Source of the DNA: a virus
DNA: 23,632 nt
Reading direction: 5' to 3' (one strand)
IMG/VR virus record: IMGVR_UViG_3300048592_000400
Span: 1-23,632 of that record
Made by a program: the position numbers and the translations under genes. Of the stretch, positions 3,686 to 23,632 are shown one piece after another; the stretch's first letter is position 1; every line of letters starts with the position of its first letter. The notes under the pieces are model-generated. The model was given only the letters and a program-made list of their open reading frames with translations, was not told the origin of the DNA and searched no databases.

Positions 3686-4034
3686 GCGCCGGGTCCCTCA
3701 GCGGGTAGAGCAGCGCCGTCACGACGGGCGGCAGGAACCCCTGTGCCCACTGCGCACCCTGGCCGCCGTCGCTGCCGCGATGCGCGAAGAACTCCTCGAC
3801 AAGCAGCAGCGTCGCCTGCTGGACCTCGGCCGGCACGATCGAGTAGCCGCTCGAGTCCGGCTCCGGGTCCACCCAGCCGCTGCTGTCGAGAAAGAAATCC
3901 GCGCCGTCGCCCAGGTAGTTCAGCACCGCAGCCGAGGCGCCGCGCACGAGCTGCGTGATCTTCACGTCCTGGTCCGTGCCGATGACCTCGCACTGGTCCT
4001 TGGCCTGCTCGAGCGTGACGAGTGACGGAGTCAT
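3678..4034 (-). CDS. Head-tail connector (HK97 gp6-like adaptor)
   Basis: A 118-residue helical protein starting MTPSLVTLEQAKDQCEVIGT, followed by VKITQLVRGASAAVLNYLG, IVPAEVQQATLLLVEEFFAH and the end VVTALLYPLRDPALG. The pattern of V-T-L-E-x-A-K, D-x-x-I-x-x-L-x-x-x-A-x-x-x-V-x-x-Y, V-x-x-A-x-L-L-x-x-x-x-x-Y/F, and a final V-x-x-L-L-x-x-x-R-x-P/x is that of Phage_connect_1/gp6-like adaptors that form a ring under the portal. The ATG at 4034 overlaps the stop of the collagen-like gene (ATGA). An upstream in-frame start at 4082 lies within the previous gene and would add an unrelated basic leader, so it is rejected. Confidence 0.85.
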   Translation of the reverse strand: MTPSLVTLEQAKDQCEVIGTDQDVKITQLVRGASAAVLNYLGDGADFFLDSSGWVDPEPDSSGYSIVPAEVQQATLLLVEEFFAHRGSDGGQGAQWAQGFLPPVVTALLYPLRDPALG

Positions 4035-4861
4035 TTTTCGACGTCCCGGCCGTCCCGACCTTTCTTCACCGCCAGGCGCCACTCAGCCGACGTGCCGGGC
4101 TTTGTCGTTGGTGCGTCCACCTGCGCAATCCACCAGGAGCCACCGAAGGTGACGCCGTCGCCGCGCTCATAGGCCTCGCCCTCGCGGAAAATGCCCTTGT
4201 CGAGCGGCCCGGGATAGCGGACCTCAGTGACGGTCTTCGCGCCATCGGTGTAGGTGAACACGGTGCGCATTGTCCGATCGCTCGGGTACTCGACCTCCGC
4301 GCTCGCGATGCCTCGCACGATTACGATCCAGCCGGCCCCCTCGAGGCCCGCGGCCTCGGCGATCGGCGTCGTCTTGCGGGTCGAGCGCAGCAGCCCGCCG
4401 GCGTGGGCCGCGAAGGTCCCGCGCGGGTACGACTTGGCCGGGTCCAGGTCGGGCTGAATGCTGATCTCGAGCGCATCCTTTCCGTCGAGGCCTCGCTCGC
4501 CAGGTGGGCCCTGCTCACCCTTTTCGCCTTTCTCCCCACGCTCGCCGGGGTCGCCCTTCAGGTGGGCAAAGAAGGACTTGGAGGATGGGGTGTCGAGTAT
4601 CGCCTGCGCCACATCCCGTGGATTGGTCGGAGGGCAGTCCTGACCGGCCTCACCCTTCTCGCCCCGCTCGCCCGGCGGCCCCTGCTCGCCCTTCTCGCCG
4701 CGCTCCGGGATCCGTGCCGCGACGCGCTCGACCTGGAGCGCGAGCGTCTTGCTGAATCGATCGAAGGTCTCGTTCCAGCGTTCCTCGATCCTCGCGAGCT
4801 CCCGCTGGATCACGGCGCGCACGGCGACTGCGGCTCGCTCTGCGAAGTTCTCATCGGTCAC
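4031..4861 (-). CDS. Collagen-like virion protein
   Basis: A 276-residue protein with a helical N-terminus (about 1-50), two collagen-type tracts and a globular C-terminus. Tract one (residues 55-75) has seven Gly-X-Y triplets, tract two (103-129) nine, rich in GEK, GER, GEQ and GPP. The tracts flank a short helical segment (PRDVAQAILD). The C-terminal part holds two similar segments, one near 138-160 (DPAKSYPRGTFAAHAGGLL) and one near 226-247 (REGEAYERGDGVTFGGSWWI). The latter resembles the Y-x-x-G-D-x-V-x-x-x-G-x-x-W/Y core of small carbohydrate-binding modules. Phage collagen-like proteins form trimeric fibres. Start is GTG at 4861 after GAGGTGAT. A fibre or spike role is inferred. Confidence 0.65.
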   Translation of the reverse strand: MTDENFAERAAVAVRAVIQRELARIEERWNETFDRFSKTLALQVERVAARIPERGEKGEQGPPGERGEKGEAGQDCPPTNPRDVAQAILDTPSSKSFFAHLKGDPGERGEKGEKGEQGPPGERGLDGKDALEISIQPDLDPAKSYPRGTFAAHAGGLLRSTRKTTPIAEAAGLEGAGWIVIVRGIASAEVEYPSDRTMRTVFTYTDGAKTVTEVRYPGPLDKGIFREGEAYERGDGVTFGGSWWIAQVDAPTTKPGTSAEWRLAVKKGRDGRDVEK

Positions 4862-21351: not shown

Positions 21352-21846
21352 CTATTTCACCCTCGCAAATTCACAGAACAACTCGGCGGAGGCAGCGCAG
21401 TAGGCCGCATGTGCCTCGGCTGCGGAGCGATAGGTTCCGAGGTAACGGCGCCGTCCGCCGGCCTTGATCGCTGCTCGCCACGGTTTGGAAGATCGCGGAT
21501 CGTGGAGATACGCGCCCTTCATCCCGGTACTCGAGCCAGAACGCACCGTCTGGTTGGCATTGTTCTGAGTCGGTGTGCAGAACCTCAGGTTCGCGCGACG
21601 GTTGTCCAATCCGTTGCGATTGACGTGATCGACGATCCAGCCCGGCGGCGCGCCAATGATCAGCCGGTGCAACTGCCACCGAACGGTGGCAATTTCCTTA
21701 ACGGCGTAGCAACCCCAACGGCGACGTACAACAGTCCACCGGCCGTTCCCGAGCCGCGGCAGGTCGGCAGCGTCCACCAAAATTTCTGCGCCAGCCGAAT
21801 TGAGAAGGCAGACAGAGCCGAAATATTCTTCTGGCGGCAGGCTCAT
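21352..21846 (-). CDS. HNH endonuclease with AP2 DNA-binding domain
   Basis: A 164-residue protein of a class found as homing endonucleases in phages. The HNH part has VRWQLHRLIIGAPPGWIVDH (55-74), VNRNGLDNRRANLRFCT and PTQNNANQ. The AP2-like part follows (about 105-160): GMKGAYLHDPRSSKPWRAAI, GGRRRYLGTYRSAAEAHAAY. The ATG at 21846 overlaps the Cro-like stop (ATGA) and was preferred over a longer frame to 21966, which overlaps the Cro gene for its whole extra part. It is the second gene of the leftward early operon, so it is presumably expressed early in lytic growth. Confidence 0.88.
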   Translation of the reverse strand: MSLPPEEYFGSVCLLNSAGAEILVDAADLPRLGNGRWTVVRRRWGCYAVKEIATVRWQLHRLIIGAPPGWIVDHVNRNGLDNRRANLRFCTPTQNNANQTVRSGSSTGMKGAYLHDPRSSKPWRAAIKAGGRRRYLGTYRSAAEAHAAYCAASAELFCEFARVK

Positions 21847-22062: not shown

Positions 22063-22091
22063 ATACTAGCGGCGCTAGTACGTACCGTCAA
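22063..22091 (-). promoter_or_regulatory. Early leftward promoter (PR-like) for cro
   Basis: On the minus strand TTGACG (22091-22086), 17-base spacer, TAGTAT (22068-22063). The -35 overlaps operator O2 and the -10 overlaps O1. Seven bases separate the -10 from the GTG at 22055, so the transcript begins at or just before the start codon. Confidence 0.75.
22065..22079. promoter_or_regulatory. Operator O1 (perfect palindrome)
   Basis: ACTAGCGGCGCTAGT, a 7-1-7 palindrome with exact half-sites. It overlaps the -10 box of the cro promoter, so binding would block it. The same exact 15-mer occurs at 23466-23480. Confidence 0.8.
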
Positions 22092-22104
22092 TAGCGGCGC
22101 TCGT
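22090..22104. promoter_or_regulatory. Operator O2
   Basis: AATAGCGGCGCTCGT, one mismatch in each half-site. Centre is 25 bases from O1. It touches the -35 of the leftward promoter and ends at the -35 of the repressor promoter, the position from which repressor could both repress and activate. Confidence 0.7.
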
Positions 22105-22132
22105 TGGCCTGTTACTAGCGCTGCTACACAAT
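22104..22132 (+). promoter_or_regulatory. Repressor promoter (PRM-like)
   Basis: TTGGCC (22104-22109), 17-base spacer, CACAAT (22127-22132). Both boxes match consensus at four of six positions, so it is a weak promoter as expected for maintenance promoters. Six bases separate the -10 from the ATG at 22139, predicting a leaderless repressor mRNA. Confidence 0.55.
22114..22128. promoter_or_regulatory. Operator O3 (weaker copy)
   Basis: ACTAGCGCTGCTACA: left half-site exact, right half-site matching at four of seven positions. Centre is 24 bases from O2. It overlaps the -10 of the repressor promoter, so occupancy would shut repressor synthesis, as with Cro at lambda OR3. Confidence 0.6.
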
Positions 22133-22138
22133 CTCAGC

Positions 22139-22702
22139 ATGCCCAGACCAGCACAGAAATCGACGCTTGCTGACTGGCAAAAGGAGGATGCCGCGCGTCT
22201 GCTCAAGCTCTTCAGGAGCCAGCCGAAAGAGACGCGACTCAGCCAGGAGGCCTTTGCGAGCCGAAACGACATCGGAACACAGGGCAACTTGTGGCAATAC
22301 CTGCACGGCTATCGAGCACTCAACGCGGAGGTCGCGGTCAAGTTCGCCGCGGGCCTGGGCTGTCCAGTCGTAGCGTTCAGCCCGCGCCTCGCGAAGAAGC
22401 TGGGCGAGATGGCCTCTGCAGGAAGCGTCGCGCCTGCGAAGGTCGAGAACCGGGTCGCAGAATCGGTAACTCTCTATGGCACGACCGCGTCCGCCGAAGG
22501 CATGTTGCTCGGACGGGAGTGGGACAAGCTGACGGACCCACTGCAGAAGCGGTTGTATCGCGAGTTGATCGAGGTGGCTGTCGCGGCCCAGGAGCGGGCG
22601 AAGAGCGCGACGGCAAAGGACCAGAAATCATCGCGGAAAAAGCGATCGCGCACACCGCGCACGACTCGCGAGAAGAATTTGATTGGTGACCACAAGGAGT
22701 GA
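22139..22702 (+). CDS. C1-type lysogeny repressor lacking a peptidase domain
   Basis: A 187-residue protein. The N-terminal DNA-binding domain (about 10-90) has ADWQKEDAARLLKLFRSQPK, RLSQEAFASRNDIGTQGNLW, and QYLHGYRALNAEVAVKFAAG, the pattern of C1-type phage repressors. Instead of the S24/LexA-like Ala-Gly cleavage and Ser/Lys catalytic domain, it carries a helical segment (GREWDKLTDPLQKRLYRELI) and a basic tail. An SOS autocleavage route to induction is therefore not apparent. The recognition helix region (GNLWQYLHGYR) resembles that of the Cro-like protein (GLVWQWLNGVR). The gene has no ribosome site and is probably leaderless; a 4-bp gap separates it from the outer-membrane gene. Confidence 0.8.
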   Translation: MPRPAQKSTLADWQKEDAARLLKLFRSQPKETRLSQEAFASRNDIGTQGNLWQYLHGYRALNAEVAVKFAAGLGCPVVAFSPRLAKKLGEMASAGSVAPAKVENRVAESVTLYGTTASAEGMLLGREWDKLTDPLQKRLYRELIEVAVAAQERAKSATAKDQKSSRKKRSRTPRTTREKNLIGDHKE

Positions 22703-22706
22703 CGAG

Positions 22707-23378
22707 ATGCGAAGATTCATTGTTGCCGCCCTGGCCGTTGCAGGTGCCATCGGCACTGCGAACGCGGGCGAAGAAGCTGGGTTCTATGTGGGATTCGACG
22801 CAGGACAATCGAGCGTCGATCTCGATCAGCGAGGCCTCGACAACTCGCTCATCGGTCTGTTCAATGATCTGGGCTTCGCGGTGCTCGACGGATCGTCGGA
22901 GACGAGCGAAGACTCGTTCACGTATGGGTTGATCCTCGGCTACCAGGTGCTGCCATGGCTCGCGCTCGAGGCAACCTACATGGACCTCGGCGAGGCCGAG
23001 TACAAGGCGCGCGGCACGATCAGAGATGGCGTCGCGGTCGCGAGCAGCCGATTCGACTTCAACGGCTCCGCGAAGGGGCCGGCGGTATCCGTGATCGGCA
23101 TGTATCCCTTCGCGAGCGGCTGGAGTGTGCTCGGTCGAGCCGGCATGGTGTTCACGGACATCGACTACGACATCAACGTGTCGGTCGAGGATCAGTCGTC
23201 GTCGCAGAGCATTTCGCGCTCGAACGAGAACTTCCTGTGGGGCGCTGGCGTGAGCTTCACCGCCCTACCCTGGACGGTTCGCCTCGAGTATCAGCAGATC
23301 AGCGACCTCGGTGACAAAGACGTCGCCGGTGAGGCCGATGGCAGTCGTGTGACGCTGGCCACGATTTTCCGCTTCTGA
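22707..23378 (+). CDS. Outer-membrane beta-barrel protein (lysogenic conversion candidate)
   Basis: A 223-residue protein with a signal peptide (MRRFIVAALAVAGAIGTANA, cleavage after Ala20) and a mature part of alternating strands: GFYVGFDAGQSSVDL, FTYGLILGYQVLPWLALEAT, YMDLGEAEYKARG, GWSVLGRAGMVFTDIDYDIN, NENFLWGAGVSFTALPWTVR, ending VTLATIFRF with the terminal Phe needed for barrel insertion. It matches the OmpA/opacity-like 8-stranded barrel group. AAGGAG precedes the ATG at a seven-to-eight-base spacing. It lies 4 bp after the repressor and ends at a terminator, so it should be expressed in lysogens. Possible roles include receptor masking, as for Lom-like proteins, or serum/adhesion phenotypes. 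Confidence 0.85.
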   Translation: MRRFIVAALAVAGAIGTANAGEEAGFYVGFDAGQSSVDLDQRGLDNSLIGLFNDLGFAVLDGSSETSEDSFTYGLILGYQVLPWLALEATYMDLGEAEYKARGTIRDGVAVASSRFDFNGSAKGPAVSVIGMYPFASGWSVLGRAGMVFTDIDYDINVSVEDQSSSQSISRSNENFLWGAGVSFTALPWTVRLEYQQISDLGDKDVAGEADGSRVTLATIFRF

Positions 23379-23399
23379 CCGCAGCCTGTTGACGCCCAG

Positions 23400-23431
23400 A
23401 CCGGCCGCCTTTGTGCGGCCGGTTCCATTTG
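23400..23431 (+). terminator. Terminator-like hairpin after the outer-membrane gene
   Basis: ACCGGCCGC / GCGGCCGGT (23400-23408, 23415-23423), a perfect 9-bp stem with a CTTTGT loop, followed by TCCATTTG. The U tract is weak, so efficiency is uncertain, but it would separate lysogenic transcription from the early unit at 23491. Confidence 0.6.
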
Positions 23432-23440
23432 TGGCATGAA

Positions 23441-23455
23441 ACTAGCGGCGCTATT
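23441..23455. promoter_or_regulatory. Operator O4
   Basis: ACTAGCGGCGCTATT: left half-site exact, right half-site with one mismatch. It runs into the TTGACA -35 box (23454-23459) and its centre is 25 bases from O5. Confidence 0.72.
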
Positions 23456-23482
23456 GACAGCATTAACTAGCGGCGCTAGTGT
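23454..23482 (+). promoter_or_regulatory. Early rightward promoter (PL-like)
   Basis: TTGACA (23454-23459, consensus), 17-base spacer, TAGTGT (23477-23482). The layout with O4 at the -35 and O5 at the -10 repeats the leftward promoter. Eight bases separate the -10 from the ATG at 23491. Confidence 0.78.
23466..23480. promoter_or_regulatory. Operator O5 (perfect palindrome)
   Basis: ACTAGCGGCGCTAGT, identical to O1 and in the same relation to the -10 box of its promoter. This lets the repressor made at 22139 shut both early units. Confidence 0.8.
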
Positions 23483-23490
23483 TGCGCCCC

Positions 23491-23632
23491 ATGACGACCT
23501 CACTCACCACCGCCCAAGTCGCCGCCGCCACCGACCCGCGCATGGGTCAGGCGCTGAACGCACTGTCGCGCCTGCGCGGCCGTGCCGATGCGCTGGAGGA
23601 AGCGATCGCCGCGCGGGATCCGCGGGCCCGGC
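23491..23632 (+). CDS. First gene of the rightward early operon (partial)
   Basis: An open frame from ATG to the window end, 47 residues: MTTSLTTAQVAAATDPRMGQ, ALNALSRLRGRADALEEAIA and ARDPRAR. The helix ALNALSRLRGRADALEEAIA suggests a coiled-coil or small DNA-associated protein. It follows the operator-controlled promoter by eight bases and would be leaderless. Product is not recognised; this position in comparable phages holds early exclusion, recombination or replication genes. Confidence 0.6.
   Translation, partial: MTTSLTTAQVAAATDPRMGQALNALSRLRGRADALEEAIAARDPRAR

Follow-up and report, generated by a model that had tools for sequence, protein, structure and literature searches.

The best-studied switch of this kind is the immunity region of phage lambda (OL-rexB-rexA-cI-OR-cro), in which two operator clusters lie about 2.4 kb apart and CI both activates PRM from an operator centred at −42 and loops between the clusters through its S24-type C-terminal domain, a domain that is missing from some other lambda-type switches. 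A smaller version has been characterised in CP-933P of E. coli O157:H7, in which a leaderless CI-like repressor reported to be octameric, PaaR2, and a Cro-like protein, YdaS, share overlapping OR sites (PMC8630535). PL of CP-933P has −35 and −10 boxes identical to those of PR, with OL sites of its own, and PaaR2 and YdaS each repress PR, PRM and PL (PMC8630535). In the immB regions of N15 and phiKO2, three OR sites lie between repressor and cro and two OL sites lie upstream of repA on a linear plasmid prophage, while in that of PY54 the cI and cro mRNAs are leaderless by RACE and a single operator, OR3, is present (PMC4488713).

The locus considered here lies in a stretch of viral DNA of 23,632 nucleotides, analysed as a whole and referred to below as the window. 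We put at about 0.93 the probability that five related sites near its right end are the three OR and two OL operators of a mirrored lambda-type immunity region, a reading made from the sequence. The switch is of a known type, with CP-933P PaaR2/YdaS and N15/phiKO2 as tested precedents. Compared with lambda, the gene order appears in mirror image, with a CI-type repressor and a Cro on its opposite side, tandem operators 24–25 bp apart on PR and PRM, a second operator cluster on PL ahead of recombination genes, and a cargo gene between repressor and OL, whereas the operator word is another one, two OL sites were found, the repressor lacks S24, cro is predicted to be leaderless, and the clusters stand closer together. 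With CP-933P it shares a small CI-like repressor, here predicted to be leaderless (His-tagged PaaR2 is 15 kDa), a YdaS protein in the role of Cro and a matched PL module, but CP-933P has 18-bp operators with half-site GTTTAGTAA, four OR palindromes and a toxin-antitoxin cargo in place of the window's OmpA-like gene (PMC8630535). The 3+2 count of sites is that of N15/phiKO2, from which the sequences and the setting of OL differ, and PY54 offers the parallel for leaderless transcripts but not for the number of operators (PMC4488713).

Operators, promoters and start codons

The operator word is the 7+1+7 palindrome ACTAGCGGCGCTAGT. The first-pass annotation had placed exact copies of it at 22065 and 23466 and imperfect ones at 23441, 22090 and, weaker, 22114, and a mismatch search recovered all five as claimed (Table 1). 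Beyond these, no site with three or fewer mismatches to ACTAGCGGCGCTAGT was found in the 23.6 kb window; at this threshold there were 9 strand matches against 0.54 expected, a number reached in 0 of 100 shuffles. A motif-free test points the same way, since of three perfect 7+1+7 palindromes (by position) in the window two are ACTAGCGGCGCTAGT repeated, and a repeated perfect palindrome of this form arose in 0 of 200 shuffles. Aligned in their promoter directions, the left and right 40-bp modules are identical at 32 of 40 bases (best of 20 shuffles, 25). The layout proposed for both modules, with O2 abutting TTGAC(G/A), O1 over the −10, a 17-bp spacer and 25-bp spacing, also held, the start-to-start spacings being 25 for O1–O2, 24 for O2–O3 and 25 for the right pair, and the distance between modules agrees with that claimed, at a computed value of about 1.34 kb. 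The outer end of O2 reads ATT rather than AGT, likely because the −35 begins there (GCTATTGAC); nearly all relatives retain it. A literature search with the operator core TAGCGGCGCTA returned unrelated papers only.

Table 1. Regulatory sites and genes of the putative immunity region (window coordinates).
Feature	Coordinates	Strand	Remarks
Cro-like regulator, YdaS family, 70 aa	21843..22055	(-)	GTG 7 nt after -10; predicted leaderless
Predicted promoter PR	22063..22091	(-)	TTGACG (22091-22086), 17 bp, TAGTAT (22068-22063); relatives share layout
OR1, perfect 7+1+7 palindrome	22065..22079	(.)	over -10 of PR (cro promoter); 15/15 bases kept in L005
OR2, 2 mismatches	22090..22104	(.)	fused to PR -35; other side adjoins PRM -35-like TTG
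Predicted promoter PRM	22104..22132	(+)	TTGGCC, 17 bp, CACAAT; weak match 8/12; repressor ATG 6 nt on
OR3, 3 mismatches	22114..22128	(.)	over predicted PRM -10; 15/15 bases kept in L005
CI-like repressor, 187 aa	22139..22702	(+)	lambda CI DNA-binding domain, helical C-terminal part; predicted leaderless
OmpA-like outer-membrane beta-barrel	22707..23378	(+)	Pfam OmpA_membrane 3.4e-24; position of lambda rexAB
OL2, 1 mismatch	23441..23455	(.)	fused to PL -35; 15/15 bases kept in L005
Predicted promoter PL	23454..23482	(+)	TTGACA, 17 bp, TAGTGT; aligned with PR modules
OL1, exact OR1 copy	23466..23480	(.)	over PL -10; 14/15 bases kept in L005
Rightward early unit, first gene (cut by window end)	23491..23632	(+)	ATG 8 nt after -10

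PL escaped an automatic promoter scan because its −10 carries only 3 of the 6 consensus bases, a consensus that may not be that of the host. The centre of OR2 is 42 nt from the start codon of cro and equally 42 nt from that of the repressor gene; the site lies beside the TTG of the weak PRM −35 and is centred at −42 from the predicted PRM start, which is the activation geometry of lambda, and we infer that the repressor would activate PRM from OR2. These distances were measured in the window and in five relatives whose operator is the same or nearly so (L005, L016, L042, L049 and, taking the second of two ATGs as the repressor start, L044): the O2 centre is 41–43 nt from the repressor start and, where measured, 42 nt from the cro start, with 16–17 nt from O1 to the cro start and 16–18 nt from O3 to the repressor start. 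Because start codons follow the −10 by 6–8 nt, cro and repressor are predicted to be leaderless, and in the window the predicted transcription starts fall on the start codons of cro, cI and the right-hand gene. The first-pass annotation mentioned neither this coincidence nor the 42-nt placement of OR2. The right-hand gene is likewise predicted to be leaderless in the window, L005, L016 and L013. The right promoter of L042, L036 and L049 is not of this form and is followed by a leader with a hairpin-like repeat; there (L042:4848-4880, the L036 right module and L049:5431-5470) the predicted transcript begins with a short inverted repeat, for instance CGCTCCATCG...CGATGGAGC.

Regulators and flanking genes

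The left triplet of sites lies between a leftward YdaS/Cro-type gene and the rightward repressor gene. The product of the former matches Pfam YdaS_toxin (1.2e-18), the PHROG 35 repressor family (3.2e-22) and the Cro structures 8co2, 8c7k and 3bd1. In the repressor, residues 6–100 match lambda repressor in the PDB (1.9e-7), the predicted fold resembles the lambda CI DNA-binding domain (1rio/1lmb), and many phages have proteins annotated as CI that align over part of the length at 33–43% identity; a curated Pfam search of the same protein gave no HTH match. The remainder is modelled as partly helical at modest confidence (pLDDT ~70), with a disordered tail. An S24 peptidase domain was looked for and found absent in the repressors of the window, L016 and L013, and is present in those of L042, L036, L049, L060 and L063, so that one operator word is common to phages with S24 repressors (L036, L042) and without (window). 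The window thus combines a CI-family DNA-binding domain with a divergent Cro-type gene, intergenic operators over the predicted PR and PRM, and a second cluster on the promoter of the other early unit. The S24 domain that gives a RecA-inducible CI self-cleavage and oligomerisation has no counterpart in its repressor. The set of a YdaS partner, a short repressor without S24 and a sequence-matched PL module with OL sites is that of the PaaR2/YdaS type.

The contents of the rightward unit, which the window cuts in its first gene, were read in L005, whose repressor is 93% identical to that of the window: there the unit continues to RecT (9.6e-40) and also holds an integrase-like ORF, by eye a tyrosine integrase. 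The terminase gene shares its strand with cro and is found farther in the leftward direction. A repressor/Cro switch together with a right unit carrying RecT and an integrase-like ORF identifies the phage as temperate and its plan as that of lambda, mirrored.

The OmpA-like gene begins 4 nt after the repressor stop codon, and its product had no match among 50,697 phage records; expression in the lysogen is expected, and it is possibly a lysogenic conversion or superinfection-exclusion gene. Two further observations concern the leftward side. An HNH endonuclease gene (PHROG 99; 21352-21846, minus strand) immediately follows cro and is missing at that place in L005, the offset between the two sequences shifting there by 495 bases, which suggests a recent homing-type insertion or loss. 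At 4031-4861, also on the minus strand, an ORF with collagen-like repeats (GERGEKGEAGQ, GEKGEQGPPGERG) probably encodes a tail or fibre protein.

Recurrence among relatives

A comparison of L005 with the window shows the five operators to be identical at 74 of 75 bases, against 4/10 and 6/10 in the 10-base spacers inside the modules, where the kept bases include the GAC of the −35, and 6/10 in the leader that separates OR3 from the repressor gene. As read from this comparison, conservation is a clean footprint on operators and −35 boxes. Related phages were searched for a conserved 15-mer pair, as proposed with the original claim, and the pair recurs (L005, L016, L013, L042 and others). Divergent paired modules surround the repressor in L005/L006 and, as found by operator-pair searches, in L016, L013, L042, L036+L008 and the L044 contig, with OR3 counterparts at 24–25 bp in L044, L049 and L042. 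Across the whole contigs of seven such phages (up to 41 kb), every site with at most two mismatches falls in the two modules. The many dispersed copies of Mycobacteriophage L5-type stoperators are found neither there nor in the window, and a stoperator reading was rejected because the copies are confined to the two modules.

Since operator-pair searches use the operator itself, protein-only searches were added. Repressor homology defined 36 loci (the window and 35 relatives) with no operator word assumed, and in each the DNA before the repressor was compared with its divergent counterpart behind, a score of at least 26/33 counting as a second module. Such a module was present in 23 of the 36, with scores of 26–30 of 33, the maximum among 144 scores on shuffled DNA being 25; ten of 15 loci found by Cro homology also passed. 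The remaining 13 repressor-found loci had no second module by this test, although one of them, L058 (on L013's contig), has it by eye. Near-duplicates among the loci (L045/L046; L064/L065; L088-L090; the cluster L063, L066, L068-L071, L075) reduce the independent lineages to roughly a dozen. Operator words vary by lineage (AATACCGGCGGTATT in L063 and its relatives, TAGCTGTGCTATTAT in L056, TTTAGCCTTAGGCTA in L088), and despite this the O2/−35/O1/−10 layout is retained in most of them. The layout had been described as unusual; its recurrence across lineages makes it ordinary for the group, a conclusion to which the tested precedents (PMC8630535, PMC4488713) also lead.

Several observations lie beside this result. 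A sister group of repressors (L063, L066, L068-L071, L075-L077) has the helix TQGAVSHFMN or similar, an operator near AATACCGGCGGTATT and the two-module layout. A recognition-helix code, pairing WQY with TAGC half-sites and SHF with TACC half-sites, was dropped because L042 (GHY with TAGC) contradicts it. Searching viral contigs for the exact 15-mer produced 32 matches, mostly single and probably due to chance, and those in L018, L039 and L040 were dismissed as chance or as lying within genes. The sole genome match is Rhodocyclus purpureus DSM 168, where one full module lies behind a terminator-like repeat (L043:5064-5103); no second module was found at that locus, and no evident CI gene within 8 kb.

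Regulatory mechanism and its alternatives

Sites, spacing, overlap with promoters, conservation, gene identities and recurrence in relatives argue for the OR/OL-like arrangement originally claimed, and the matched modules, in the window and in relatives, for control of both early units by one repressor. In the lysogen, repressor dimers on OR1/OR2 and OL1/OL2 would silence PR, which serves cro and the leftward genes, and also PL, which serves the rightward recombination and integration genes; the repressor at OR2 would probably support its own weak promoter, PRM, which OR3 would limit. The same sites are probably also bound by the YdaS-like protein, with the preference reversed in the manner of Cro, and each of the three first genes probably has a leaderless mRNA. 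It is from sequence that we infer regulator binding, affinity order, promoter activity and leaderless translation.

An extension of this scheme, rather than an exclusive alternative to it, is lambda-like long-range looping between the modules, which we regard as tentative, its chances being somewhat under even. The matched modules at 1.34 kb are in keeping with it, as are the reported octamerisation of PaaR2, by analogy with which other repressors of its kind may oligomerise (PMC8630535), and the predicted helical nature of the C-terminal part of the window repressor. Against it, this repressor lacks the S24-type domain, module spacing among relatives ranges from ~0.5 to 3 kb and is hence not conserved, and a second module would be required anyway for control of the second unit. 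Without S24, neither SOS cleavage nor looping in the style of lambda can be taken for granted, and any cooperativity between neighbours 25 bp apart must come from the helical tail or be absent. A related conjecture, that lysogens with S24-less repressors would be immune to SOS-inducible relatives using the same operator, would not themselves be SOS-inducible and would express all early genes from leaderless mRNA, appears rather unlikely in this full form.

A reading in which the YdaS-like protein is the main user of the operators, the 187-aa protein is another regulator (e.g. an antirepressor) and there is no CI/Cro competition is highly improbable. YdaS-type Cro proteins do bind such regions (PMC8630535), and the 187-aa protein has no curated Pfam HTH match, but both sequence and predicted fold relate it to the lambda CI DNA-binding domain as a homologue, and among its relatives are full CI proteins, S24 included, that share the operator word (L036, L042). 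Still less credible is a toxin-antitoxin pair formed by YdaS and its neighbour with the sites as autoregulatory operators, a reading suggested by the family name YdaS_toxin; it was rejected because the CP-933P study makes the case for YdaS as an analogue of Cro rather than a toxin (PMC8630535), a further early promoter ~1.4 kb away is covered by the sites as well, and the neighbouring protein is homologous to CI. Chance repeats or DNA hairpins of no regulatory role, to which the many viral 15-mer matches with no partner nearby might point, have the slightest chance of all and are already refuted by the comparative data, given the shuffle results, operator conservation and recurrence in protein-defined relatives.

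The OR/OL reading fixes a regulatory map and predicts the operator for a group of uncultured temperate phages, in which the S24-less repressors raise a testable question about prophage induction. A second product is a set of about a dozen lineages for comparison, each giving its repressor, Cro and operator together, which can help to show how the specificity of CI and Cro shifts and to predict cross-immunity from sequence.
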